A stretch of 37,026 nucleotides of DNA from Rhodobacteraceae bacterium CG17_big_fil_post_rev_8_21_14_2_50_65_11. GTDB lineage: Bacteria > Pseudomonadota > Alphaproteobacteria > Rhodobacterales > Rhodobacteraceae. Every line of letters starts with the position of its first letter. The first letter of the stretch is position 1. Position numbers and translations under genes: made by a program. Below, piece after piece: positions 1 through 14,164 of the stretch. Under the pieces are notes generated by a model. The model had not been told where the DNA came from and searched no databases. It saw nothing but the letters and a program-made list of their open reading frames with translations. Location: assembly GCA_002783145.1 (NCBI GenBank), contig PFEX01000034.1, positions 1 to 37,026 on the forward strand, read 5' to 3'.

Positions 1-480
1 CGGCACGTTGAGCGACACGTAGACGATGATCAGCCCCAGCTTGGTGTCGATGATCCCGAGCCGCGACCACAGCATGAAGACCGGCAGAGACAGCGCGATC
101 CCCGGCACCGTCCGAAACAGCATCAGCCCGAGGAACCACGCGTTCTTGAACCGGAAGCGAAAGCGCGCGAAGGCGTAGCCGCCCGCCATGCCGATCACCA
201 GCGCGATCACCGTCGAGGTCAGCGCGATCACCAGCGAATTGATGAAATAGCTCAAGACCGGGATCGCCACCTGCCCCTCGTCGAAGCCGAAGATCTTGGC
301 GAAATTGTTCAGTGTCACCTGCTCTGGAATCCAGATCGGCGGCCGCGCGAGGATCTCGCGGTTGGGCCGGAACGCCGACAACACGACCCACAGACCGGGC
401 ACCGAGATGATCACCATCAACAGGAAAGTGGTAAGCCACAGCCCCGTCGCGCGTAGCCTTTTTTTCAACGCCCGGCTCAT
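1..480 (-). CDS. Carbohydrate ABC transporter permease, MalG/UgpE type (C-terminal part beyond window)
   Basis: Second inner-membrane permease of a carbohydrate-type ABC importer, the partner of the permease encoded just upstream. The visible 160 residues begin MSRALKKRLRATGLW. They contain a first membrane helix (about residues 12-36), a periplasmic stretch with the family feature LNNFAKIF, and further helices from about residue 77 that begin the transport domain. The EAA loop that docks the ATPase lies beyond the window edge, so the gene is incomplete here, not broken. The ATG at 478-480 overlaps the stop of the upstream permease in an ATGA arrangement, implying translational coupling in one leftward operon. 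No ATPase gene is visible; it probably lies further downstream, outside the window. The family is clear and the substrate is unknown. Confidence 0.9.
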   Translation of the reverse strand, partial: MSRALKKRLRATGLWLTTFLLMVIISVPGLWVVLSAFRPNREILARPPIWIPEQVTLNNFAKIFGFDEGQVAIPVLSYFINSLVIALTSTVIALVIGMAGGYAFARFRFRFKNAWFLGLMLFRTVPGIALSLPVFMLWSRLGIIDTKLGLIIVYVSLNVP

Positions 481-1388
481 TCCGCGCCACCCATGAAGCG
501 ACGCGCCGCCACGAGTTTGGTAAAGAAGAAATAGGTGAAGGCGATCGACAGGATCGTGGAGATGTAGGCCATCGCATTGGCCTGCCCCATTCGGGCATTC
601 TCATACCCGGTGCGCGCGATCAGCGTCCACAGAAGTTCGGTTCGGCCCGCCGGGCCACCGCCCGTCATCACCGTGACGATGTCGAAGGCGCGCGCCACGT
701 CGAGCGAGCGGATCGTCATCGCAATGAAGGCAAAGGGCATGATGAAGGGCAACGTGATATGGCGAAACACCTGCCACGAATTGCAGCCGTCCACCTTGGC
801 GGCTTCCAGCGGGTCGCGCGGCATGGCGAACAGCCCGGCCAGCAGCAGGATCGCAAAGACCGATGTGCTCATCCACACTTCGGCAAAGATGATCGAGAAC
901 ATCGCCAGTTCCCTGTCCACCAGCCACGGAATTGCCTGGTCGGTGATGCCAAGGCTTTGCAGCGCATTGTTCAGAACGCCGATATTGTCGTTGAAGATGA
1001 ACTTGAACTGAAAACCGACGAGGACGGGCGAGAACATCATTGGGAACATCATGATCGTGCGCAAAGTGCGCTGTCCCCAGGTGATGCGGTTGATCAGCAG
1101 GGCAATTCCGAGGCCGAACAGAAATTCCAGGTTGAGCGCGATCAGCAGGAACAGGATGGTGCGGCCGAACACCTCCCAGAAGTCGGGGTCGGAAAACAGC
1201 CGCACATAGTTGCGCAGGCCGATGAAGATCTCGATCGTTTCCGGCCGGATCAACCGGTAGGGCGTCAGCGACGTGTAAAGCGAGAACACGAGCGGCAGCG
1301 CAACCACGAACAGCATCGTGAACAGGGCCGGTGACAACAGCAGGATCGGCGTCAATTTCGCCTGCCGTGTGCGAAGATATCGAAGCAA
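477..1388 (-). CDS. Carbohydrate ABC transporter permease, MalF/UgpA type
   Basis: Inner-membrane permease (303 aa, usual length for the family) of a sugar or glycerol-phosphate type importer. A first helix at about residues 13-37 is followed by a periplasmic loop and five more helices. The cytoplasmic EAA loop that contacts the ATPase is visible as EAAKVDGCNSWQVFRHITLP. The start is a TTG at 1386-1388, chosen because GGAAGGA lies nine bases upstream and no in-frame ATG fits. The gene lies 75 bp after the binding-protein gene and overlaps the next permease by four bases. It belongs to the leftward operon beginning at 5725, so transport is tied to CoA-transferase and MaoC genes. Substrate unknown. 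Confidence 0.92.
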   Translation of the reverse strand: MLRYLRTRQAKLTPILLLSPALFTMLFVVALPLVFSLYTSLTPYRLIRPETIEIFIGLRNYVRLFSDPDFWEVFGRTILFLLIALNLEFLFGLGIALLINRITWGQRTLRTIMMFPMMFSPVLVGFQFKFIFNDNIGVLNNALQSLGITDQAIPWLVDRELAMFSIIFAEVWMSTSVFAILLLAGLFAMPRDPLEAAKVDGCNSWQVFRHITLPFIMPFAFIAMTIRSLDVARAFDIVTVMTGGGPAGRTELLWTLIARTGYENARMGQANAMAYISTILSIAFTYFFFTKLVAARRFMGGAE

Positions 1389-1463: not shown

Positions 1464-2786
1464 TCAGTTGTAGCCGGCGTCTTCCATGATCACGCTTGCC
1501 TCGCGCGCAGCCGCGTCAAGCGCCTCCTGCGAGGTCATGTCGCCCACGATCGCCGCCTGAAGGCGCGGCCAGATCACGTTCGAGACCTCGATCCACTCGG
1601 GGATCAGCGGCGGGGTGAAGGCATCCTCCGCCATCGAGGCCGAATAGGTATCGAACACCTCGACCATGAAATCGCGCCCGTCGGCGGCAAACTCGGCCCG
1701 CGCGTCTTCCCAGACCTGCGTGCGGGTCGGCAACAGGCCGTTGCGCGCCTCGACCATCTGCCGGTCATGGTCGGTCAGGAAGGTCACGAAGGAGACCGCC
1801 GCCTCCATGTTGTCGCAGGTCTCGGTGATCGAGAAACTGTGCGACCCCGACCAGCCGGTGCGGACCCCGGCCGAGCCCATCGGTGCGCGCACCAGGCCGA
1901 CATCGCCGGCGACGCTCGAATTTTCGGGATCGTTGAAGAAGGCCGACCAGCCGGCCCAGTCGAGGTTCAGCGCAACCGACCCGCTGGCAAAGCCGAGCCC
2001 GGTATCGTCCCACAGGTAGTTGGGCACCCCGCGCGGCACTGCCCCGGAGTTGTAGAGATCGACAAACCAGTCGAGCGCTCGCACCCCGGCCTCGGAATTG
2101 AACGTCGGCTCCCAGTCATCATTGAAAAGCTGCCCGCCTTCCGCGACAAGCATTTCGTAGAACCGACCGACGACCGCCTCGTCCTTGCCGACATATTGCG
2201 TGCCGTAGAAATCCGGCGGATCAGCGAAGAAATTCGCTTGATCGGCGACCTGCGCCCAAGTTTCCGGCGGCGTCAGTGCGTAGCCGTATTCGGCCTCGAA
2301 GGCTTGCTGGTTTGCTTCGTCCTCGTAAAGTGACCGGATATAGAACAGGTTCGACACGTCCGAATGGCGCGGCAACTGGACCAGTCGGCCATCCACGGTC
2401 GAGTGCTCCAGCACCCGCGGCACGAAGTCAGACAGGACGTCCTCGGAGATGTGATCGCGCAGATCGACATAGATCCTGCCGTATTGCGGCGCGAAGCTGG
2501 TGTGGTTCGACCCGACGCACCAATCGAGCGTCCCCGCCGCGATATCCTGCTTGATCTCGCGGTCGAGTTCGAAGTGGTTCTGGCGGCTCAGGATCTCGAC
2601 GGTGGCGCCGGTCATCTCCTCCCACGCGGAGATCTCTGAATAGAGCGGTTCGTATTGCGCGCCCCCGATCAGTTTCACCCGCAGGGTGTAGCCGTCAAAA
2701 TTGCCGTAATCCTGAGCAACGCCCGGCATTGCCAACAGCGGCACGAGCGCCGTGGCAAGCATTGCTTTCCCTTTCAGTCTGAACAT
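1464..2786 (-). CDS. Extracellular solute-binding protein of the ABC importer (family 1)
   Basis: Periplasmic receptor (440 aa) delivering substrate to the two permeases downstream. The N-terminus is a typical Sec signal: MFRLKGKAM, a hydrophobic core LATALVPLLAM, and a likely cleavage after GVA or GVAQ. The mature part has the two-lobe fold of family 1 carbohydrate binding proteins, with the lobe-defining pattern SEISAWEEMTGATVEI near the start and a C-terminal helical region. A cysteine in WCVGSNHTS and one in TETCDNME may form a disulfide. The ATG at 2784-2786 follows an AAGGGAGGA ribosome site. It lies 26 bp after the CoA-transferase gene and 75 bp before the first permease gene. A sugar, polyol or sugar-acid ligand is the family expectation; the exact ligand cannot be read from sequence. 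Confidence 0.93.
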   Translation of the reverse strand: MFRLKGKAMLATALVPLLAMPGVAQDYGNFDGYTLRVKLIGGAQYEPLYSEISAWEEMTGATVEILSRQNHFELDREIKQDIAAGTLDWCVGSNHTSFAPQYGRIYVDLRDHISEDVLSDFVPRVLEHSTVDGRLVQLPRHSDVSNLFYIRSLYEDEANQQAFEAEYGYALTPPETWAQVADQANFFADPPDFYGTQYVGKDEAVVGRFYEMLVAEGGQLFNDDWEPTFNSEAGVRALDWFVDLYNSGAVPRGVPNYLWDDTGLGFASGSVALNLDWAGWSAFFNDPENSSVAGDVGLVRAPMGSAGVRTGWSGSHSFSITETCDNMEAAVSFVTFLTDHDRQMVEARNGLLPTRTQVWEDARAEFAADGRDFMVEVFDTYSASMAEDAFTPPLIPEWIEVSNVIWPRLQAAIVGDMTSQEALDAAAREASVIMEDAGYN

Positions 2787-2812: not shown

Positions 2813-4033
2813 TCACACCCCTTCACGGGGCTTGTTATCTGCTTCGCCGCCCGCCGGCACGAGATCGGGCAGCAGATCGTTGACGATGATTGCGCGGTCA
2901 GCGCCCAGAACCGGCGCGGCGCGGGCGCTTTTCAGCACCTGGCCGTTCAACCGGATCGGGCTGCGCAGCGCATGAAGCGCGGTGTCGGCGTTGCGCCGGA
3001 TCACCTGTTCGAAATCGAGGGTCTGGAACGCCTCGGAGGCCAGCATCTCGGGCCAGTCGAGAACTTCGGAACACCAGATATCGGCGGGCTGAAGCACCGC
3101 CAGCCAGTCGGCGGTGCGGCGCGTCCGTGTCGTTTCGGCGATTGCGGTCTTGATCGCGTCGCGCGCGCGCATCATCGCGGCACCATCGTTGAAATAACGC
3201 TCCAGCCCGTCGATCCCCATCAACCCCGCCAGCCGTTCAAGCGAGGGCGTCATCGCCAGGGCGAGGTAGCCGTCGGCGGTGCGATAGACCCCGTAGGGCG
3301 CGCCCAGATAGGCATGCGCGCCGTTCACCGCGCTGCGTTCGGGGGCGCGTCGGCCATCGTTGAGATGCGTGGTCAGCACCTCGAACTGGAAGTCGATCAT
3401 CGCCTCGAACAGACTGGTCTGGACGTGCGCGCCGCGGCCATGGACACCGCGCCCGACCAGCGCGGCGAGTATGCCATGCGCCAATGCGCCTCCAGCCAGC
3501 ATGTCGGCCACCGCAAGTCCCATCGGCATCGGCGGGTCATCGCGCGACCCGGTCAGCCACAGCAGCCCCGACCGCGCCTGCGCCAGCAGGTCCTGTCCCG
3601 GCAGATCGCGCCACGGGCCGTCTTCGCCGAAGCCCGAAATCGAGCCGTAGACAAGGCGCGGGTTGATCTCGCGCACCGCGTCGTAGCCGAACCCCTGCCG
3701 CTCGATCACGCCGGGGCGGAAATTCTGGATCATCACGTCGGCGCGCGCGATCAACGCGCGCAGCAGCGCCCGGTCCTCCTCGTCGCGCAGATCGGCGGCA
3801 AGGCTTTCCTTGTTGCGGTTGATCGCGTGAAACAACGAATTGTCGCCATCAATATCGGTATCGGACAGGTAGAGGTTGCGGCACAGATCACCGCTGCCGG
3901 GGCGCTCGATCTTGATCACCCGCGCGCCGAGATCGGCCAGCTTCAGCGAGGCGTAGGGCCCGGACAGGAACTGGCTGAAATCGAGCACGACGAGGCCGTG
4001 CAGCGGGCGATCCTCGGTCGGCATCACCTTCAT
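2813..4033 (-). CDS. CaiB/BaiF (family III) CoA-transferase
   Basis: Cytoplasmic enzyme of 406 aa that moves CoA between carboxylic acids through an enzyme-aspartyl intermediate. The N-terminal part has the family pattern VLDFSQFLSGPYAS followed by LADLGARVIKIERPGSGD (about residues 16-50), which forms the CoA-binding Rossmann half. NFRPGVIERQGFGYD (104-118) and GQDLLAQARSGL are also typical. The expected catalytic Asp is D177 in GLAVADMLAGG. The start ATG at 4031-4033 overlaps the stop of the preceding gene (ATGA). In this operon it sits between a binding-protein-like gene and an ABC importer, which suggests it activates the imported compound or a product of it. Acceptor and donor are unknown; candidates such as C4-C5 dicarboxylates or hydroxy acids are only guesses. 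Confidence 0.93.
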   Translation of the reverse strand: MKVMPTEDRPLHGLVVLDFSQFLSGPYASLKLADLGARVIKIERPGSGDLCRNLYLSDTDIDGDNSLFHAINRNKESLAADLRDEEDRALLRALIARADVMIQNFRPGVIERQGFGYDAVREINPRLVYGSISGFGEDGPWRDLPGQDLLAQARSGLLWLTGSRDDPPMPMGLAVADMLAGGALAHGILAALVGRGVHGRGAHVQTSLFEAMIDFQFEVLTTHLNDGRRAPERSAVNGAHAYLGAPYGVYRTADGYLALAMTPSLERLAGLMGIDGLERYFNDGAAMMRARDAIKTAIAETTRTRRTADWLAVLQPADIWCSEVLDWPEMLASEAFQTLDFEQVIRRNADTALHALRSPIRLNGQVLKSARAAPVLGADRAIIVNDLLPDLVPAGGEADNKPREGV

Positions 4034-5157
4034 GCCCGGCTCTCCTCGTGGGCGGCTTGCAGCGCGTCGAGCGTGGCACGCGCAGGCGTATCACCGCGCA
4101 GGAAGGCATGGACGATGTCGCCGCCGCGATCCTGAAAGCCCATGTAACCATCATAGCGCGGGCGCAACCACGCCGTGTCAAGCGTGCGGCGCGTGGCGCG
4201 GAAAAAATCGTGCGTCGCAGCATTGCAGGCCTCGTCTTCCCACGCAACGGCGTTGCCGGGTTGCCCGCCAGCCTCGAAAAACAGGCCCTTCTGGCAGTCG
4301 GCGCCGGCGATCCAGAGCGCGTAATCGGTCGCAATCTCGCGCTCGGTCGAGGCCGCGCTGACGGCAATGCCGGTGCCGCCCAGAACGGTGCCCGAAGGGT
4401 CGTCGCCGCGCAGGCCGGGCGCATCGGTGAAGTGCAGGGGGAAACGGCAATACCCCCTTCGGCTGTAGTTGGTGTAGCCGTAGCCGAAGGGTGAATAGGC
4501 CGGCGCCTCGGCGCTGCGCCCCATCCATTCGTATATGCCGATCGGGTCGAGCGTCAGGCAACGCGGGTCCATCAGCCCCATCACCTCGCCCAACCGGCCC
4601 AGCACCTCTTCACCCGCGGCGCGGTCGACGAAGCTGCTGCCCCCGGCGACATCTGCGCCAAGGTTGCGCACCAGCCCCATGAAGGTCATCAGCGCATTGA
4701 TCGGGATCAGCGCGAAGGCCACCTTGCCCCTGCGGGCAAGGTCCATCACCCCGTCCCAGTCGCGCGGCGCCTCGGCGATCAGGTCGGGGCGGAACGCGGC
4801 GACCGGTGTGGCCGCGTCGATCGCAAGCGCCCATTGCTTGCCGCCGAAATTGTAGCTCGTATGCGACAGGCCGACCGACTGCGCCGCCAGCCTCTTCAGG
4901 TCGGCGTCGCGCCCGGCATCGTCGAACGCGATCAACAGGCCGGTCCCGGCGACCTCGCCGACATGCGGGTGGTCGATCACCATTAGATCGTAGCGGTCGG
5001 CCATTTCCTCGATGGGACGGTCGGCGAAAGCCTGAAGCGAGCGTTTTTCCCAGCGGATCGACACGCCGGGATGCGCCTTTTCATATGCCTCGGAGGTGGC
5101 GACCATCGGTTCGAAGCCGCGCGCGTGGTCCCAGGTCATGCCGACAAGCTCAGCCAT
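4030..5157 (-). CDS. Solute-binding-protein-like protein without signal peptide
   Basis: A 375-aa protein with the sequence pattern of family 1 extracellular solute-binding proteins. The mature-type N-terminus is [18 protein letters not shown], and the C-terminal half has [11 protein letters not shown], then [14 protein letters not shown], typical of the second lobe. There is no signal peptide or lipobox: the fold starts at residue 2, and the nine possible extra upstream codons (MRPGKRQGP) do not supply one. It should therefore stay in the cytoplasm unless exported in complex. The start is the ATG at 5155-5157, which overlaps the end of the MaoC gene as ATGGCTGA. A normal exported binding protein (1464-2786) is present in the same operon, so this copy probably has another role, such as ligand sensing, substrate hand-over or an enzyme built on the fold. 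Family is clear, function unknown. Confidence 0.85.
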
Positions 5158-5725
5158 CGGCCCTTGCCTTTTTCCGGGCCGCAAGCGCGGCGTCTGCCTC
5201 GGCGCGGAAAGCGGCAGGGTCGCGGTAAAGCGCCGTCATCAGGTGTTCGCAGTAAAGCGCCTGTTCACCTTCGCCCTTGAACACCGAATAGCTGACCCGA
5301 ACCTTGCCCATGCGGTGATCCTTGACCTCCTTCGACAGGTTTTCGCGGATCGTGTAGATCGTATCGCCGATGAAGACCGGGGCGATAAAGCGCAGCCTGT
5401 CGTAGCCATACGAAAAAGAGTTCAGGCAATTCGTCGCCGCCAACCCGAGCCCGTAGGAAAACACCATTGCGCCCGCCACCAGCCTGCGGCCGAAGACCCC
5501 CGCCTCGGCTGCGAAGCGTTCGTCGCTGACATAGGGGTGGTGGTCCATCACGAGGCTGTTGAACAGCATGGATTCGCCCTCCGAGATCGTGCGGCGGATC
5601 GAGCGGATCCGATCGCCCGGTGCGAAATCCTCGAAATACCAATCCTCGGAGTTCCAGGCCGGAATCTCGGCGTGATCAGCGGGAAGCCCCGGCAACCCAC
5701 GCGGATGAACGCCGATCTCGGCCAT
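5150..5725 (-). CDS. MaoC-like hot-dog dehydratase, first gene of the leftward operon
   Basis: A 191-aa single hot-dog protein related to MaoC/(R)-specific enoyl-CoA hydratases. The start chosen is the ATG at 5723-5725, preceded by GAGGGGGAG four bases away; a further in-frame ATG nine codons upstream has no such site. A lead-in of about 28 residues precedes the conserved pattern [13 protein letters not shown]. The hydratase-2 motif is modified: around residues 60-66 it reads MDHHPYV where the canonical form is GDxNPxH, so the Asp is kept (D61) but the position of the catalytic His is Val66. The later family pattern reads [14 protein letters not shown], with Ala in place of the usual His. It may be a specialised or non-catalytic partner of the intact MaoC encoded divergently at 5861. 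The stop overlaps the next gene by eight bases. Confidence 0.88.
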
Positions 5726-5860
5726 GGCTCCCCCTCGGTTTTGGTCGATCACTCAATCATTGCAAACTCACAATCATGGATCTGTTTTCATATGTCAAAC
5801 TTTTTTGTATAAGTAAAAAATGACCGCCGACCCTTTGGCGGGACCGACAGGGGAGGCGCA
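5726..5860. promoter_or_regulatory. Divergent promoter region of the catabolic locus
   Basis: This 135-bp gap separates the leftward operon (starts 5725) from the rightward pair (starts 5861). Positions 5753-5820 are much richer in A and T than the surroundings. CAATCAT occurs twice in direct orientation, at 5754-5760 and 5771-5777, a spacing of 17 bases. A TATAAG element near 5810-5815 could be a rightward -10 box. It is the natural place for the IclR regulator encoded at 7361-8191 to act, but no perfect IclR-type palindrome is visible. Confidence 0.55.
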
Positions 5861-6313
5861 ATGGAACGCGAACAGTTTTTCGAGGAATACGAGCTTGGTG
5901 CCGCGCGCCAGACGCTCGCGCGGACGATCACCGAGGCCGATATCGTCTTTCACGCCGGTCATTCGGGGGATTTCTTCCCGCATCACATGGACGCCGAATG
6001 GTGCAAGACGCAGCCCTTCGGGGCCCGCGTCGCCCATGGAACGATGACCTTCACCATCGGGATCGGCCTGACCGCGACCCAGATCAATCCGCGCGCCTTC
6101 ACCTATGGCTACGAACGGTTGCGCTTTCCCGCCCCGGTCTTTGCCGGCGACACGATTCGCACCACCGTGACCATCGGCGCGCTTGACGACGACCCCAAGC
6201 GGCCCGCTCATGGACGGGTGACCGAGGTCTGCGAAACTACCAACCAGCACGGCAAGACCGTGATGTATTGCGAGCATATCCTGCTCGCCGAACGCAAGGA
6301 GGCCATGCAATGA
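5861..6313 (+). CDS. MaoC family dehydratase/hydratase with intact motif
   Basis: A 150-aa hot-dog protein, the usual size for single-domain MaoC enzymes that add or remove water on CoA thioesters. The start ATG follows GGGGAGG. The hydratase-2 motif is well preserved: SGDFFPHH at residues 35-42 supplies the Asp (D37) and His (H42) expected to activate water. It is followed by FGARVAHGTMTF, the second family signature, and FAGDTIRTTV near residue 95. It overlaps the oxidoreductase gene by four bases (ATGA), so the two are probably translated together. Paired with the divergent MaoC gene whose motif is degraded, it is the more likely active hydratase of the locus. A (di)carboxyl-CoA or branched enoyl-CoA substrate is inferred only from the neighbouring CoA-transferase. 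Confidence 0.92.
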   Translation: MEREQFFEEYELGAARQTLARTITEADIVFHAGHSGDFFPHHMDAEWCKTQPFGARVAHGTMTFTIGIGLTATQINPRAFTYGYERLRFPAPVFAGDTIRTTVTIGALDDDPKRPAHGRVTEVCETTNQHGKTVMYCEHILLAERKEAMQ

Positions 6314-7374
6314 CCCTCGATCTCGCACAAGGCTGGCCCGGACCGGCCAATCCCGCCCCCATCGTTCTCGTCGGTGCGGGCGGTATCGTCCGCGATGCCC
6401 ACATGCCGGCCTATGCAAAGGCCGGGCTTGCCGTGACCGGTGTCACCGATGTCGACGCTGCCCGCGCCAAGGCCCTCGCGCAGGACTTCGACCTGCCCGA
6501 CCTTTACCCCGACCTTGCCGCCGCAGTGGCCGACCGGGGCACCAACGCCGTCTATGACATCGCCACGCCGCCGCATGTGCTACCCGAGATCCTGCCGCAC
6601 CTGCCCGACGGCGCGGCGGTTCTGATGCAAAAACCGATGGGTGCCGATCAGGATCAGGCCCGCGCGATCCGCGCCATCTGCCGCGACAAGGGGCTGAAAG
6701 CGGCGGTGAACTTTCAGCTTCGGTTCTCGCCGATGATGATGGCGGTGCAGGACGCGGTGCGGCGCGGCCTTCTGGGCGACTTGCTCGAGATCGAGGTGCA
6801 CGTGAACATCTTCACGCCGTGGACGCTGTTTCCCTTCCTGATCCCGATGAGCCGCGTCGAAATCGCGGTGCATTCGATCCACTACCTCGATGCGATCCGC
6901 GCCGTGGCGGGCAACCCCAAGGGCGTCTTCGCTCGCAGCCTGCACGATCCCCGCGCGGATGACTTCAAGCAGACCCGAACCTCGGTGATCCTCGATTACG
7001 GCGACGCGCTGCGCGGGCTCATGTCGATCAACCACAACCATCAATGCGGGCGAAAGTTCCAGTCCGCGTGGATCCGGTTCGAGGGTAGCGCGGGCGCGAT
7101 GATGGTCAAGCTGGGGGTCAATTTCGACTATCCCAACGGCGAGCCGGATGAACTTTGGCTCTGTCGCGGCGCGGGCGACTGGCAGCAGATCCCGCTTGCG
7201 GGACGCTGGTTCATCGACGCCTTCATGGGACCGATGCGCAACGTTCAGAGGTTTGCCGCCGGCGAAGACGACCATCTGCATTCGGGTGTCGAGGATGCCT
7301 ATGAAACGATGGCACTGGTCGAGGCGTGTTTCAACGCGATAGACCGGCCGCCGGAACCGCTTATTCTCGACTAG
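6310..7374 (+). CDS. Gfo/Idh/MocA family oxidoreductase
   Basis: A 354-aa NAD(P)-dependent dehydrogenase of the glucose-fructose oxidoreductase / inositol dehydrogenase family. The Rossmann loop is visible as VGAGGIVRDAH at residues 21-31. The active-site lysine motif, usually EKP, reads QKP here (107-109, in VLMQKPMG). A histidine-rich catalytic helix follows as AVHSIHYLDAIR. The C-terminal alpha/beta domain carries the substrate site. The ATG at 6310-6312 overlaps the MaoC stop; an upstream in-frame ATG at 6268 lies inside the MaoC gene and is less likely. These enzymes oxidise sugars, polyols or their lactones and acids, which fits the ABC importer in the locus. The gene ends 14 bases inside the convergent iclR gene. 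The exact substrate is unknown. Confidence 0.92.
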   Translation: MTLDLAQGWPGPANPAPIVLVGAGGIVRDAHMPAYAKAGLAVTGVTDVDAARAKALAQDFDLPDLYPDLAAAVADRGTNAVYDIATPPHVLPEILPHLPDGAAVLMQKPMGADQDQARAIRAICRDKGLKAAVNFQLRFSPMMMAVQDAVRRGLLGDLLEIEVHVNIFTPWTLFPFLIPMSRVEIAVHSIHYLDAIRAVAGNPKGVFARSLHDPRADDFKQTRTSVILDYGDALRGLMSINHNHQCGRKFQSAWIRFEGSAGAMMVKLGVNFDYPNGEPDELWLCRGAGDWQQIPLAGRWFIDAFMGPMRNVQRFAAGEDDHLHSGVEDAYETMALVEACFNAIDRPPEPLILD

Positions 7375-8191
7375 GAGGGGCGGTCTTGTCCTCATACGGT
7401 GGCACGGTGGGGCCGCCGAGCGCGACGCTGAGCGTATTCGCCGTGTCGATGACGTGGCGGGCGCAGGTCTGGAACGAGATCGGATCGTCGAACCGCTCAA
7501 GATGCGGGACCGTAAGGGCTGCAACCGTGTGACCGGTGTGATCGAACACCGGCACGGCAATGTTGACGATGCCACGGGCAACGAAACTGTCGGTGATCTC
7601 GTGCCCACGCAGGCGGATCTCGGCCAGTTCCTCGCGCAGGTGGGCTTCGGTCTTGTCCTTGGGAAGCGGCACGCGGGCGAACAGTTCCTGTAACCGGTCT
7701 TCCTCGGCGAAGGCGAGGATCACCCGCCCGGACGAGGCACGCCACAGATCGACCCGCGCGCCGAGCCGAATGCTCATCACATGATGGCTGGGCGGATCGA
7801 CCTGCCCGACGATCAGCACCACGTCATCACTGATGATCCCCAGATGCGCCGACTGATTGATCCGCGCCGTCAGCTTGCGCATGAGCGGCCCGGAAAGAGC
7901 GGTCAATCGCTTGATGAGGGGGGTCTGATGCGCCACCGCGAATAGCTTGGTCGTCAAGGAGTAACGGTCAGTGTCGGGATCCTGCGCAATGTAGCCGCGA
8001 TTTATCAACGCCACCAGCATGCGGAAGATCTCCCCCACCGACCGGCCCATGGAGCGCGCGATGTCGGATTGGCTTAGCCCGTGTTCTTCCCGCGCCAGCA
8101 ACTCGATGATATCAAGGCCCTTCTCCAGCGCGGGGGCCGAGTAGCGTGCAGTCTTCGCGACCTGATCGGGTTCGTTTTTTATGTCTTCCAT
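7361..8191 (-). CDS. IclR family transcriptional regulator
   Basis: A 276-aa regulator with an N-terminal winged helix-turn-helix at about residues 17-80 (ALEKGLDIIELLA, then LSQSDIARSMGRSVGEIFRML). The C-terminal IclR effector domain follows, including the typical RLGARVDLWRASSGRVILAF and IRLRGHEIT region and the late GIVNIAVPVFDHTG pattern. Members of this family bind small organic acids and control nearby catabolic genes. It faces the oxidoreductase gene and shares 14 bp with it at the 3' end, so it most likely controls the divergent promoter at 5726-5860. The ATG at 8189-8191 has only a weak ribosome site. Effector unknown. Confidence 0.93.
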   Translation of the reverse strand: MEDIKNEPDQVAKTARYSAPALEKGLDIIELLAREEHGLSQSDIARSMGRSVGEIFRMLVALINRGYIAQDPDTDRYSLTTKLFAVAHQTPLIKRLTALSGPLMRKLTARINQSAHLGIISDDVVLIVGQVDPPSHHVMSIRLGARVDLWRASSGRVILAFAEEDRLQELFARVPLPKDKTEAHLREELAEIRLRGHEITDSFVARGIVNIAVPVFDHTGHTVAALTVPHLERFDDPISFQTCARHVIDTANTLSVALGGPTVPPYEDKTAPPSRE

Positions 8192-12786: not shown

Positions 12787-13185
12787 TCAGTCGAGCCCGA
12801 ACTGGATAAGAAGACCGGTCTGGCAGCCTGCGCCTTGCGCAACATTTGCGTTGGCGGCGTTGCCGAACTGGAAGATGCCGTAGGCGTCGCAACCGTTCTG
12901 CGAGAGCGTGCCGTAATGGCCATTGCCTTCCTGGTGGACGACGCCCTGGTTGCCGTATCCGCTCTGGCCGATGCCGGCGCCGTTGCCGTTTCCGGCCTGG
13001 TGAACATGGGCGCTGCCATTGGCGGCCTGCGCGATGCCGTAAAGCGCCAGACCGAGGCGGATGGCGTTGGCCTCATCGGCATTGGTCGGGTTGACTTCGA
13101 AGGAGATCGAGCCCCCTGCGCTGGCCATCGGCGCGGCAAGGGTGGCAAGGGCGAGGGTGGCGGCGGTGAGGGTCTTGCGGAACAT
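12787..13185 (-). CDS. Curlin-repeat protein, CsgB-like minor subunit candidate
   Basis: A 132-aa exported amyloid-type protein. The Sec signal is residues 1-23 (MFRKTL, hydrophobic core, cleavage after ASA). A non-repeat segment with conserved look (NPTNADEANAIRLGLALYGIAQ) precedes the curlin repeats. Glutamines recur at 63, 74, 85 and 96 and then at 106, 117 and 128, an 11-residue beat with one residue missing between 96 and 106; the units have the form QxGxxN (QAGNGN, QSGYGN, QEGNGH). Two cysteines, C99 and C121, lie in the repeat part, unusual for curlins. The ATG follows AAAGGA. Order within the locus (third, after csgA-like and csgH) and the less regular repeats suggest a nucleator like CsgB, but the subunit role is inference. 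Confidence 0.85.
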   Translation of the reverse strand: MFRKTLTAATLALATLAAPMASAGGSISFEVNPTNADEANAIRLGLALYGIAQAANGSAHVHQAGNGNGAGIGQSGYGNQGVVHQEGNGHYGTLSQNGCDAYGIFQFGNAANANVAQGAGCQTGLLIQFGLD

Positions 13186-13261
13186 CGGAATATCCTTTCA
13201 GGGGCTGTCAGGTTATGAAAGTGTGTCGATTACACGTGCTTATTGGTTCAAATCGGGCGGC

Positions 13262-13648
13262 TCAAAGCTCGGTTTCCATGGTGCGGCAGAGATAGCTCTG
13301 GCCGTTCACGGTGATGGTCAGCTCGCTGTCATAGGCACTCGCCGCGCCCGACAGCATCGACTGGCCAAGCGTGACGGTCTCGCCGGCACGGGCCGTGAAG
13401 GCCCCGCCCTGGCGAATGTTGGTGCCGCGCCCGGCGAGGTGCAGGGTGTAGCTGCCGGTCAGCCTCTCAACCGCTTGCAGGCGGCCTTCGAAGCGGGTGC
13501 CGGTGGCGGTCTCGCTCACTGCGATCTCGCAGGCGAAGGGGGCAGAGGTGGTGGCGGTCGAGGCACTGGTGCAGGCGGCGGCAAGGCCCGCCCCGGCCAG
13601 GATCAGGGCCGCGGGCAGAAACCGGCGTGGGAGGAGGGGGAGGGTCAT
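13262..13648 (-). CDS. csgH: CsgH-like curli assembly chaperone
   Basis: A 128-aa exported protein resembling CsgH, the periplasmic protein of alphaproteobacterial curli systems that keeps curlins from polymerising too early. The signal is residues 1-26, ending LAAACTSAS; the Cys could be lipidated, although the lipobox is imperfect. The mature part is a small beta-sandwich-like domain: FACEIAVSETATGTRFEGRL, then LTGSYTLHLAGRGTNIRQGG and the late LTITVNGQSYLCRTME. Cysteines in ACEI and YLCR probably form a disulfide. It lies between two curlin genes, 75 bp after csgA-like and 76 bp before csgB-like, exactly where csgH occurs in related genomes. Transcription from the csgA promoter must pass the hairpin at 13683-13715. 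Confidence 0.85.
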   Translation of the reverse strand: MTLPLLPRRFLPAALILAGAGLAAACTSASTATTSAPFACEIAVSETATGTRFEGRLQAVERLTGSYTLHLAGRGTNIRQGGAFTARAGETVTLGQSMLSGAASAYDSELTITVNGQSYLCRTMETEL

Positions 13649-13674
13649 GGATCTGGTCCTTTGTGTCGGAAGGG

Positions 13675-13715
13675 AAAAAGGTGGCCCGCAGGGGGAGGGA
13701 GGCCCCCCGCAGGCC
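13675..13715 (-). terminator. Hairpin with T-run between csgA-like and csgH (attenuating terminator candidate)
   Basis: Positions 13683-13695 and 13703-13715 pair at 11 of 13 positions with a 7-base loop, starting 9 bp after the csgA-like stop. On the minus strand the stem is followed by ACC and then TTTTT (13675-13679). This is the form of an intrinsic terminator inside the operon and would lower csgH and csgB expression relative to csgA. Confidence 0.6.
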
Positions 13716-13723
13716 GGGCGGCG

Positions 13724-14164
13724 TCAGTTCTGGACGATTACCGCGACGTTGCCGTGGCCGACCTGGGTGGAGGACGCGGCGTTGCCGTTGCCGACCTGGA
13801 TCACGCCAACCGCGTTGCCGTTGCCCCACTGGGTGGTGTCGGCGCTGTTGTTCGCACCGATCTGGGCGATGCCGTTGACGTTGCCCGAGCCGTAGGTCGA
13901 GGCCGAGGCGCCGTTGTTCCAGCCGCTCTGGCCGACGACAGTACGGTTGTGGTGGCCGTCCTGAGTGGCGATGGCGGTGTTCCAGGCGCCGTCCTGGTAA
14001 AGGGTCATGTCGTTGAACCAACCCGACTGCGCACCGCCAGCGGCGTTGCCGTAGCCATACTGCTCGACACTGACGTAAGAGCCGCCGGCGGAAGCGACAG
14101 AAGCGACGGGCAGGGCGATGGCGATTGCGAGGGCGACGGTCTTGAAGGTCGATGCGATGGTCAT
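13724..14164 (-). CDS. csgA: Curlin-repeat protein, CsgA-like major subunit candidate
   Basis: A 146-aa secreted amyloid subunit. The Sec signal is residues 1-26 (cleavage after ASA). The rest is repeat: Gln occupies positions 35, 46, 57, 68, 79, 101, 112, 123, 134 and 145, every eleventh residue, with Thr at 90 as the only break. Units have the form QxGxxN (QDGAWN, QSGWNN, QIGANN, QWGNGN, QVGNGN). Eleven residues is one strand-turn of the curlin beta-solenoid, so about five full 22-residue repeats are predicted. The protein ends in VQN directly after the last Gln. The ATG follows AAAGGA. It is the first gene of the locus. Secretion needs CsgG, which is not encoded here. The assignment as major subunit rests on regularity and position. 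Confidence 0.9.
   Translation of the reverse strand: MTIASTFKTVALAIAIALPVASVASAGGSYVSVEQYGYGNAAGGAQSGWFNDMTLYQDGAWNTAIATQDGHHNRTVVGQSGWNNGASASTYGSGNVNGIAQIGANNSADTTQWGNGNAVGVIQVGNGNAASSTQVGHGNVAVIVQN

Follow-up and report, generated by a model that had tools for sequence, protein, structure and literature searches.

What does a protein with the fold of a solute-binding protein (SBP) and no visible export signal do when its gene lies between those of a MaoC-type hydratase and a CoA-transferase? The question is raised by a locus in Rhodobacteraceae bacterium CG17_big_fil_post_rev_8_21_14_2_50_65_11, where we analysed a 37,026-nt stretch of DNA (the window) that comprises positions 1–37026 of contig PFEX01000034.1, one of the 244 contigs of a 3.09-Mb genome. 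A preliminary description of this DNA had proposed that the protein, here called SBP-A, is an intracellular receptor, a substrate carrier or an enzyme that has re-used the fold, and that an exported homologue is encoded in the same operon.

Table 1. Coordinates of the genes and codons discussed; positions are those of the window unless a locus is named.
Feature	Position	Strand	Basis
Sugar ABC permease 2, truncated by window end	1..480	-	ORF; homologue order in L007 and others
Sugar ABC permease 1	477..1388	-	PF00528
Exported SBP of adjacent sugar ABC transporter	1464..2786	-	PF01547, 61.5 bits
Class III (CaiB/BaiF) CoA-transferase	2813..4033	-	PF02515, 342.7 bits
SBP-A, signal-less SBP-fold protein, 375 aa	4030..5157	-	ORF; PF13416/PF01547 matches
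SBP-A invariant R332 codon	4162-4164	-	87-row conservation
SBP-A invariant D62 codon	4972-4974	-	87-row conservation
MaoC-type hydratase/dehydratase 1 (MaoC-1)	5150..5752	-	PF01575, 49.5 bits (cut-off 27)
MaoC-type hydratase/dehydratase 2 (MaoC-2), divergent	5861..6313	+	PF01575, 74.9 bits
Gfo/Idh/MocA-type oxidoreductase	6310..7374	+	PF01408, 45.6 bits
IclR-type regulator	7361..8191	-	PF01614 and PF09339
Second-family signal-less SBP, L043	3635-4840	-	Coordinates
Second-family signal-less SBP, L056	12445-13674		Coordinates
Second-family signal-less SBP, L089	12446-13675		Coordinates
Second-family signal-less SBP, L099	14538-15719		Coordinates
Second-family signal-less SBP, L100	14501-15664		Coordinates
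Second-family signal-less SBP, L179	8992-10227		Coordinates

The SBP-A open reading frame runs from an ATG at 5157 to a TGA at 4030–4032. Its start overlaps MaoC-1 by 8 nt and its stop is overlapped by 4 nt by the start of the CoA-transferase gene, as read from the junction sequences, and these overlaps together with the domain matches in Table 1 bear out the siting between a MaoC and a CoA-transferase. The exported SBP gene is separated from its upstream neighbour by a gap and has GGGAGG ahead of its start. In relatives that extend further than the window (L051, L139–L142), genes for a UgpC-type ATPase, an enolase-superfamily protein and a rhamnose mutarotase come next. Elsewhere in the window, positions 12787–14164 encode small proteins whose N-termini look like signals and whose N/Q/G-rich repeats give them, by eye, a curlin-like appearance; one further small protein lies in their midst at 13262–13648.

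SBP-A matches the Pfam SBP families PF13416 (32.8 bits, cut-off 27) and PF01547 (26.5 bits, cut-off 26, barely passed), and three of six other family members scanned with these models (L057, L163 and L165) fall under both cut-offs. An AlphaFold2 model computed from a 38-row alignment (pLDDT 93.6, pTM 0.91) comprises a complete two-lobe SBP fold, in line with the mature fold described earlier, and a PDB fold search with this model returned 1040 matches at E ≤ 0.001. Structural alignment, which covered Foldseek's own matches so that absence of a family there is no exclusion, gave Z 38.5 and rmsd 2.5 over 360 residues for SmoF (7ofy) and Z 38.1 and rmsd 2.8 over 366 residues for LpqY (7ape), and Z 38.0 and rmsd 2.5 over 366 residues for the Thermococcus trehalose/maltose-binding protein (1eu8); all three have the whole two-lobe fold in common with SBP-A, at sequence identities of 17–18%. 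A pseudogene or chance open reading frame is ruled out by conservation across the family. Database records label SBP-A genes "extracellular solute-binding protein" or "ABC transporter substrate-binding protein"; SBP-A has the fold of an SBP but probably not the function.

The first strand of the SBP-A model comprises residues 2–9, directly after the ATG, and the longest in-frame version, from a TTG at 5184 nine codons further upstream, adds the polar stretch MRPGKRQGP. N-terminal hydrophobicity was scored with a sliding 12-residue Kyte-Doolittle average, whose maximum was taken between the furthest upstream in-frame start and a point 30 residues beyond where the match begins. The 57 SBP-A places scored in this way (near-duplicates included) gave values of at most 1.18, save one at 1.57 (L049), and the exported SBPs at 43 places of the same loci (likewise with near-duplicates) gave 1.32–2.64, with the window's own at 2.19. 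In a similar test 86 of 88 SBP-A representatives stayed at or below 1.18, and the two that exceed it, L102 (1.79) and L164 (2.84), owe their higher values to in-frame sequence ahead of the family's ATG, which in L164 is directly preceded by GGAGG, the case of L102 being less clear. No convincing export signal was found at the family start in the window protein or the relatives examined, with L102 not fully settled, and these tests rule out a mis-called start or hidden signal for the family, L102 excepted. The signal-less start, being conserved across the family, is therefore not a matter of chance. SBP-A proteins are moreover rich in cysteine (mean 5.75 per protein, n = 87), as is to be expected for a reducing compartment, compared with a mean of 1.97 for 59 mature exported SBPs from operons of this type (near-duplicates counted), of which 58 have exactly two. 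Judged by sequence, then, SBP-A is probably cytoplasmic and made without an export signal. This upholds what had been read from the window alone, namely a fold that begins at once, nine possible upstream codons that carry no signal and a cytoplasmic location, and among the homologues no signal is conserved upstream of the start.

The exported SBP of the window has a hydrophobic N-terminus, and its AlphaFold2 model is poor (pLDDT 66.6), with a very low-confidence N-terminus and a first strand from residue 34. BLASTP of SBP-A against this protein detected no significant similarity (best E 1.6) and profile-profile comparison returned a probability of 1.1%, so that the two are not supported as near paralogues; what they have in common is a fold class, by membership of the broad SBP families alone, with no recent ancestor detectable by either method. 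The exported SBP invoked in the preliminary description is thus present, as its PF01547 match and N-terminus attest, and is not a paralogue of SBP-A recognisable by sequence.

We collected 111 SBP-A members, with a threshold of at least 200 bits (which excludes the fragment L166 at 138 bits), and clustering at 85% identity left 88 representatives; short duplicate loci (L001–L006, L064–L084, L110–L138) and loci smaller than 3 kb did not enter the fetched-locus search, and the 87-row alignment and tree omit L046 (168 aa). The family spans at least three phyla, Pseudomonadota, Bacteroidota and Actinomycetota, and its most distant member is 28% identical to the window protein. It is sharply bounded: a 20-sequence profile searched against 398 Pseudomonadota genomes found 22 places at E ≤ 1e-99, followed by one weak match at 1.8e-11, and in the fetched loci the profile scores drop from 214 bits to 44, with one fragment in between at 138. 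SBP-A is present in 18 of these 398 genomes and in 26 of 198 genomes of the window's bacterial family (own genome counted in both, one of the 26 being a contig-end fragment), as well as in 6 of 385 genomes of the class and 2 of 369 of another class, samples that overlap in part. A genome-contig scan yielded 40 loci, and a plasmid search 145 matching records, including Streptomyces (3) and Persicobacter (2). Sinorhizobium meliloti 1021 has a member as well (NC_003078, 732468–733559).

The partner that accompanies SBP-A most faithfully is the CoA-transferase, whose gene adjoins SBP-A in all 40 loci of the genome-contig scan. For 73 of the 88 representatives the two genes are no more than 200 bp apart and always share a strand; the CoA-transferase follows SBP-A in 47 and precedes it in 26, the gaps range from -19 to +12 nt, and 51 of these pairs overlap. 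The base rate of 0–12 CoA-transferase matches per genome at E ≤ 1e-30 (13 genomes) puts chance adjacency at the order of a per cent, as a rough estimate. The remaining 15 representatives comprise two with a crotonase-type gene between SBP-A and CoA-transferase, which are about 830 bp apart (L063, L097), four with the CoA-transferase 4.5–6.4 kb off (L105, L106, L156, L164) and nine without one in the stretch read. The tie to the CoA-transferase in the earlier account is thus borne out, with MaoC and transporter as less constant partners. Tree distances of SBP-A and the adjacent CoA-transferase correlate (r 0.826 over 68 pairs, with 0 of 300 permutations as high), which common inheritance alone could explain, and we claim no co-evolution beyond that. 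Both trees contain a MaoC-linked and a crotonase-linked group, and in L063 and L097 the clades are mixed, with a MaoC-linked SBP-A lying near a crotonase-linked CoA-transferase, an arrangement that resembles a partner swap. Long stop-to-stop frames seen in some loci raised the matter of a natural fusion of the two proteins, which we reject for the two compared by coordinates, L155 and L158, where the CoA-transferase is in another frame or is a separate gene.

As to what the CoA-transferase does, the enzyme of the window scores under every NCBIfam equivalog cut-off listed, the closest named model being that of succinate-glutarate CoA-transferase (224 bits, cut-off 750). An aspartate that we take to be the catalytic residue is conserved in 91 of 91 CoA-transferases of SBP-A loci. 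No class III CoA-transferase is known to need an SBP-fold partner.

The nine loci without a CoA-transferase in the stretch read (L049, L050, L152, L153, L154, L157, L163, L167 and L168, the last of which stops 0.7 kb past the SBP-A gene) bear on whether SBP-A depends on this enzyme. Searching their nine genomes with two CoA-transferase queries uncovered no close homologue in eight, the best-scoring match being 31–41% identical or, in G814, absent, with partial matches of up to 46% (G231) and 43% (G1188); G1238 has a 74% match on a different contig. The same queries found matches of 60–62% in four other genomes. Assembly quality varies among the nine, G071 being 82% complete and G814 split over 780 contigs. 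CoA-transferases that do adjoin SBP-A in L158, L160, L162 and L165 are just 37–42% identical to the reference proteins, and a divergent, unlinked partner may therefore exist in the genomes that lack a nearby one, so that the result for the eight genomes argues weakly against SBP-A being a mere CoA-transferase subunit. Six of these nine SBP-A proteins form one clade, and the cleft core is unaltered in all nine; position 65 is Phe or Trp, not His, in six, position 39 varies, L167 has Asn for H11 and L153 has Glu for W306. On account of the differences at positions 65 and 39, the ligand may differ somewhat in this group. Six of the eight such loci of at least 14 kb contain a gene resembling an enolase-superfamily sugar-acid dehydratase.

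Tandem CoA-transferase genes occur in L056 (10139–12476), L089, L101 and L102. In Persicobacter (L056, L089) each of the two adjoins its own signal-less SBP, and no SBP was detected beside the second CoA-transferase of L101 and L102. The SBP at the second Persicobacter CoA-transferase belongs to another family (Table 1) with signal-less relatives in L043, L089, L099, L100 and the haloarchaeon Halostagnicola (L179), all in clusters similar to those of SBP-A. Compared with the window operon's exported SBP, this family is about 25% identical along part of the sequence, and it reaches at most 42 bits with the SBP-A profile. The Halostagnicola cluster encodes an alpha-L-fucosidase, a mandelate-racemase-family protein, a MaoC, a rhamnose mutarotase and an amidohydrolase, with a CoA transferase about 3 kb from the SBP. 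With six loci only, one of them archaeal, we offer two signal-less lineages as a reading and not as proof.

The transporter genes beside SBP-A vary. The SBP-A and CoA-transferase pair is found, in annotated records, with a UgpC-type sugar ABC importer, with another sugar ABC importer (ribose-type in our reading, the records saying sugar ABC) and with a TRAP system, and in Persicobacter (Bacteroidota) with a RhaT symporter; Dpp-like (L049, L050, L152) and TctA-like (L153) transporters are assignments by eye, and counts of "Rbs" transporters were discarded as the reference also matches other ATPases. In L018, L043 and L044 no exported SBP of the window type stands alongside the pair, and in the window the ABC permeases are accompanied by their own exported SBP, separate from SBP-A. 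Since the transporter type varies while SBP-A stays, SBP-A is not the receptor of one importer, and its gene context, in clusters with TRAP or RhaT genes as well as ABC ones, speaks against a dedicated pairing with cognate ABC permeases.

Proteins encoded in the SBP-A clusters look like enzymes that act on sugar acids: a fuconolactonase-like amidohydrolase (104 bits, cut-off 400), a dehydratase of the talarate/galactarate/rhamnonate type (292 bits, cut-off 500) and a Gfo-type dehydrogenase, all three under their equivalog cut-offs, and by annotation a rhamnose mutarotase. Dehydratase-like genes are found in 27 of 57 loci of at least 14 kb, and in 21 of the 49 of those that have a CoA-transferase (limited flanks); either a dehydratase-like gene or a CoA-transferase is found in 55 of the 57. 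With a dehydratase-like gene in only 27 of 57, a common sugar-acid ligand is something we infer. A role for SBP-A as a stand-in for the lactonase is ruled out because several clusters hold both. In L018 (3861–5436) two genes judged by eye, one for an SDR and one fumarylacetoacetate-hydrolase-like, are found next to a MaoC–SBP-A–CoA-transferase set that no ABC importer adjoins, hinting at a diketo-deoxy sugar-acid route.

Residues W9, R13, F44, D57, D62, P64, D114, A116, P223, G260, G261, G263, Q289, G298, Q299, R332 and P333 are identical in 87 of 87 SBP-A rows, and H63, W36 and W306 show one change each. We compared these positions with LpqY on a profile alignment counted by hand, the printed part of which leaves LpqY Glu241 and Trp259 outside. 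D62, G261 and R332 of SBP-A correspond to Asp80, Gly334 and Arg404 of LpqY, and LpqY Asn134 is replaced by the invariant A116. According to the LpqY report, Asp80, Asn134, Arg404 and the Gly334 amide touch the buried glucose of trehalose, and an Arg404Ala exchange abolishes binding (PMC7949145). W9, R13, D114 and Q299 are invariant and specific to the SBP-A family; the AlphaFold2 model places W9, H11 and R13 where strand 1 ends, in the loop and in the first turn of helix 1, the region where LpqY meets the second glucose with Asn25 and Glu26. The SBP-A pocket thus looks retained but rebuilt. Its cleft core stays the same whichever transporter is encoded nearby, which suggests that all clusters have a single ligand, or a single chemical group, in common.

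Taken together, we favour the reading that an SBP fold has been re-used in the cytosol, probably as an enzyme, at some step in the breakdown of sugar acids, and put its probability at about 45%. SBP-A would have retained the sugar-binding-protein fold in full, ligand cleft included, and left transport, would act inside the cell on a sugar or sugar-acid breakdown intermediate and would, in most genomes, work with the neighbouring class III CoA-transferase and with MaoC- or crotonase-type hydratases. Its ligand would probably be a sugar acid or the keto-deoxy product of one, over which SBP-A may close as a catalyst rather than hand it on to the CoA-transferase as a passive carrier. Strict conservation of the cleft and the genomes without a close CoA-transferase tilt the balance weakly towards an enzyme; the former would also fit a dedicated binding protein, and no pathway gap for SBP-A to fill was identified in the clusters. 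Of the earlier interpretation, the cytoplasmic location by sequence, the fold and the CoA-transferase tie hold, and among the three roles proposed for an intracellular protein the enzyme is weakly favoured. The main rival gives SBP-A no catalytic role: it would load substrate onto the class III CoA-transferase, or be an accessory subunit of it, binding a scarce and highly polar acid tightly and delivering it to the enzyme. We hold this to be possible and rather unlikely, even though the linkage (neighbouring genes read in the same direction in 73 of 88 representatives, 51 of them overlapping) fits a subunit or loader at least as well, and the tree correlation, the retained sugar-contact positions and the Persicobacter row (SBP-A, CoA-transferase 1, CoA-transferase 2, second signal-less SBP) all point the same way; it sits less easily with the eight genomes that have no close CoA-transferase (a divergent one being possible), with the mixed-clade pairs 830 bp apart in L063 and L097 and with the lack of a fusion in the loci compared.

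That SBP-A is an intracellular sensor, binding an inducer or intermediate and modulating a regulator or the pathway, we regard as improbable: 29 of the 57 loci that reach at least 14 kb, and the window too, contain IclR-type genes, but the closest partner is the CoA-transferase and not a regulator, and the regulators in the annotated stretches are of several types (IclR, LacI, DeoR, GntR, LysR). We consider it very improbable that SBP-A is exported after all, whether signal-less or with its start mis-called, to serve the ABC transporter that it adjoins in the window. Hydrophobic in-frame sequence upstream of the family start in 2 of 88 representatives would allow for this, but the rest of the family has no signal, the neighbouring genes overlap SBP-A on both sides, the fold begins at residue 2, the protein is cysteine-rich and it also occurs in clusters with TRAP or symporter genes. 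Extending the favoured cytosolic role across both families, we tentatively suggest, with some doubt, that bacteria and archaea have a CoA-dependent sugar or sugar-acid route in which a MalE-type SBP, from at least two SBP lineages, is permanently cytoplasmic and acts as an enzyme or as a high-affinity loading partner of a class III CoA-transferase.

If SBP-A proteins do belong to a cytosolic pathway, importer-type annotation misleads for a family carried by 18 of 398 Pseudomonadota genomes, a binding protein has once more been given a new intracellular job, and the clusters point to a CoA-linked sugar-acid pathway of which we found no description in open-licence PMC articles, where titles and the starts of abstracts likewise turned up nothing on cytoplasmic SBP–CoA-transferase pairs. 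The S. meliloti 1021 member makes the question testable in a genetic model.

By its PF02515 match the window's CoA-transferase belongs to class III, with the succinate-glutarate, formyl-CoA and mesaconate CoA-transferases. From the sugar SBPs of ABC importers that share its fold (SmoF, LpqY and 1eu8), SBP-A differs in having no signal peptide and in not being bound to one transporter type. Cyclohexadienyl dehydratase, as described in the part of the report drawn on here, is kin to SBPs for polar and cationic amino acids, unlike the sugar-SBP-like SBP-A, and a link to a CoA-transferase goes unmentioned there (PMC7683729). Having evolved from an amino-acid SBP, it nevertheless provides the precedent for an SBP fold that has turned enzyme with its two-lobe architecture kept (PMC7683729).
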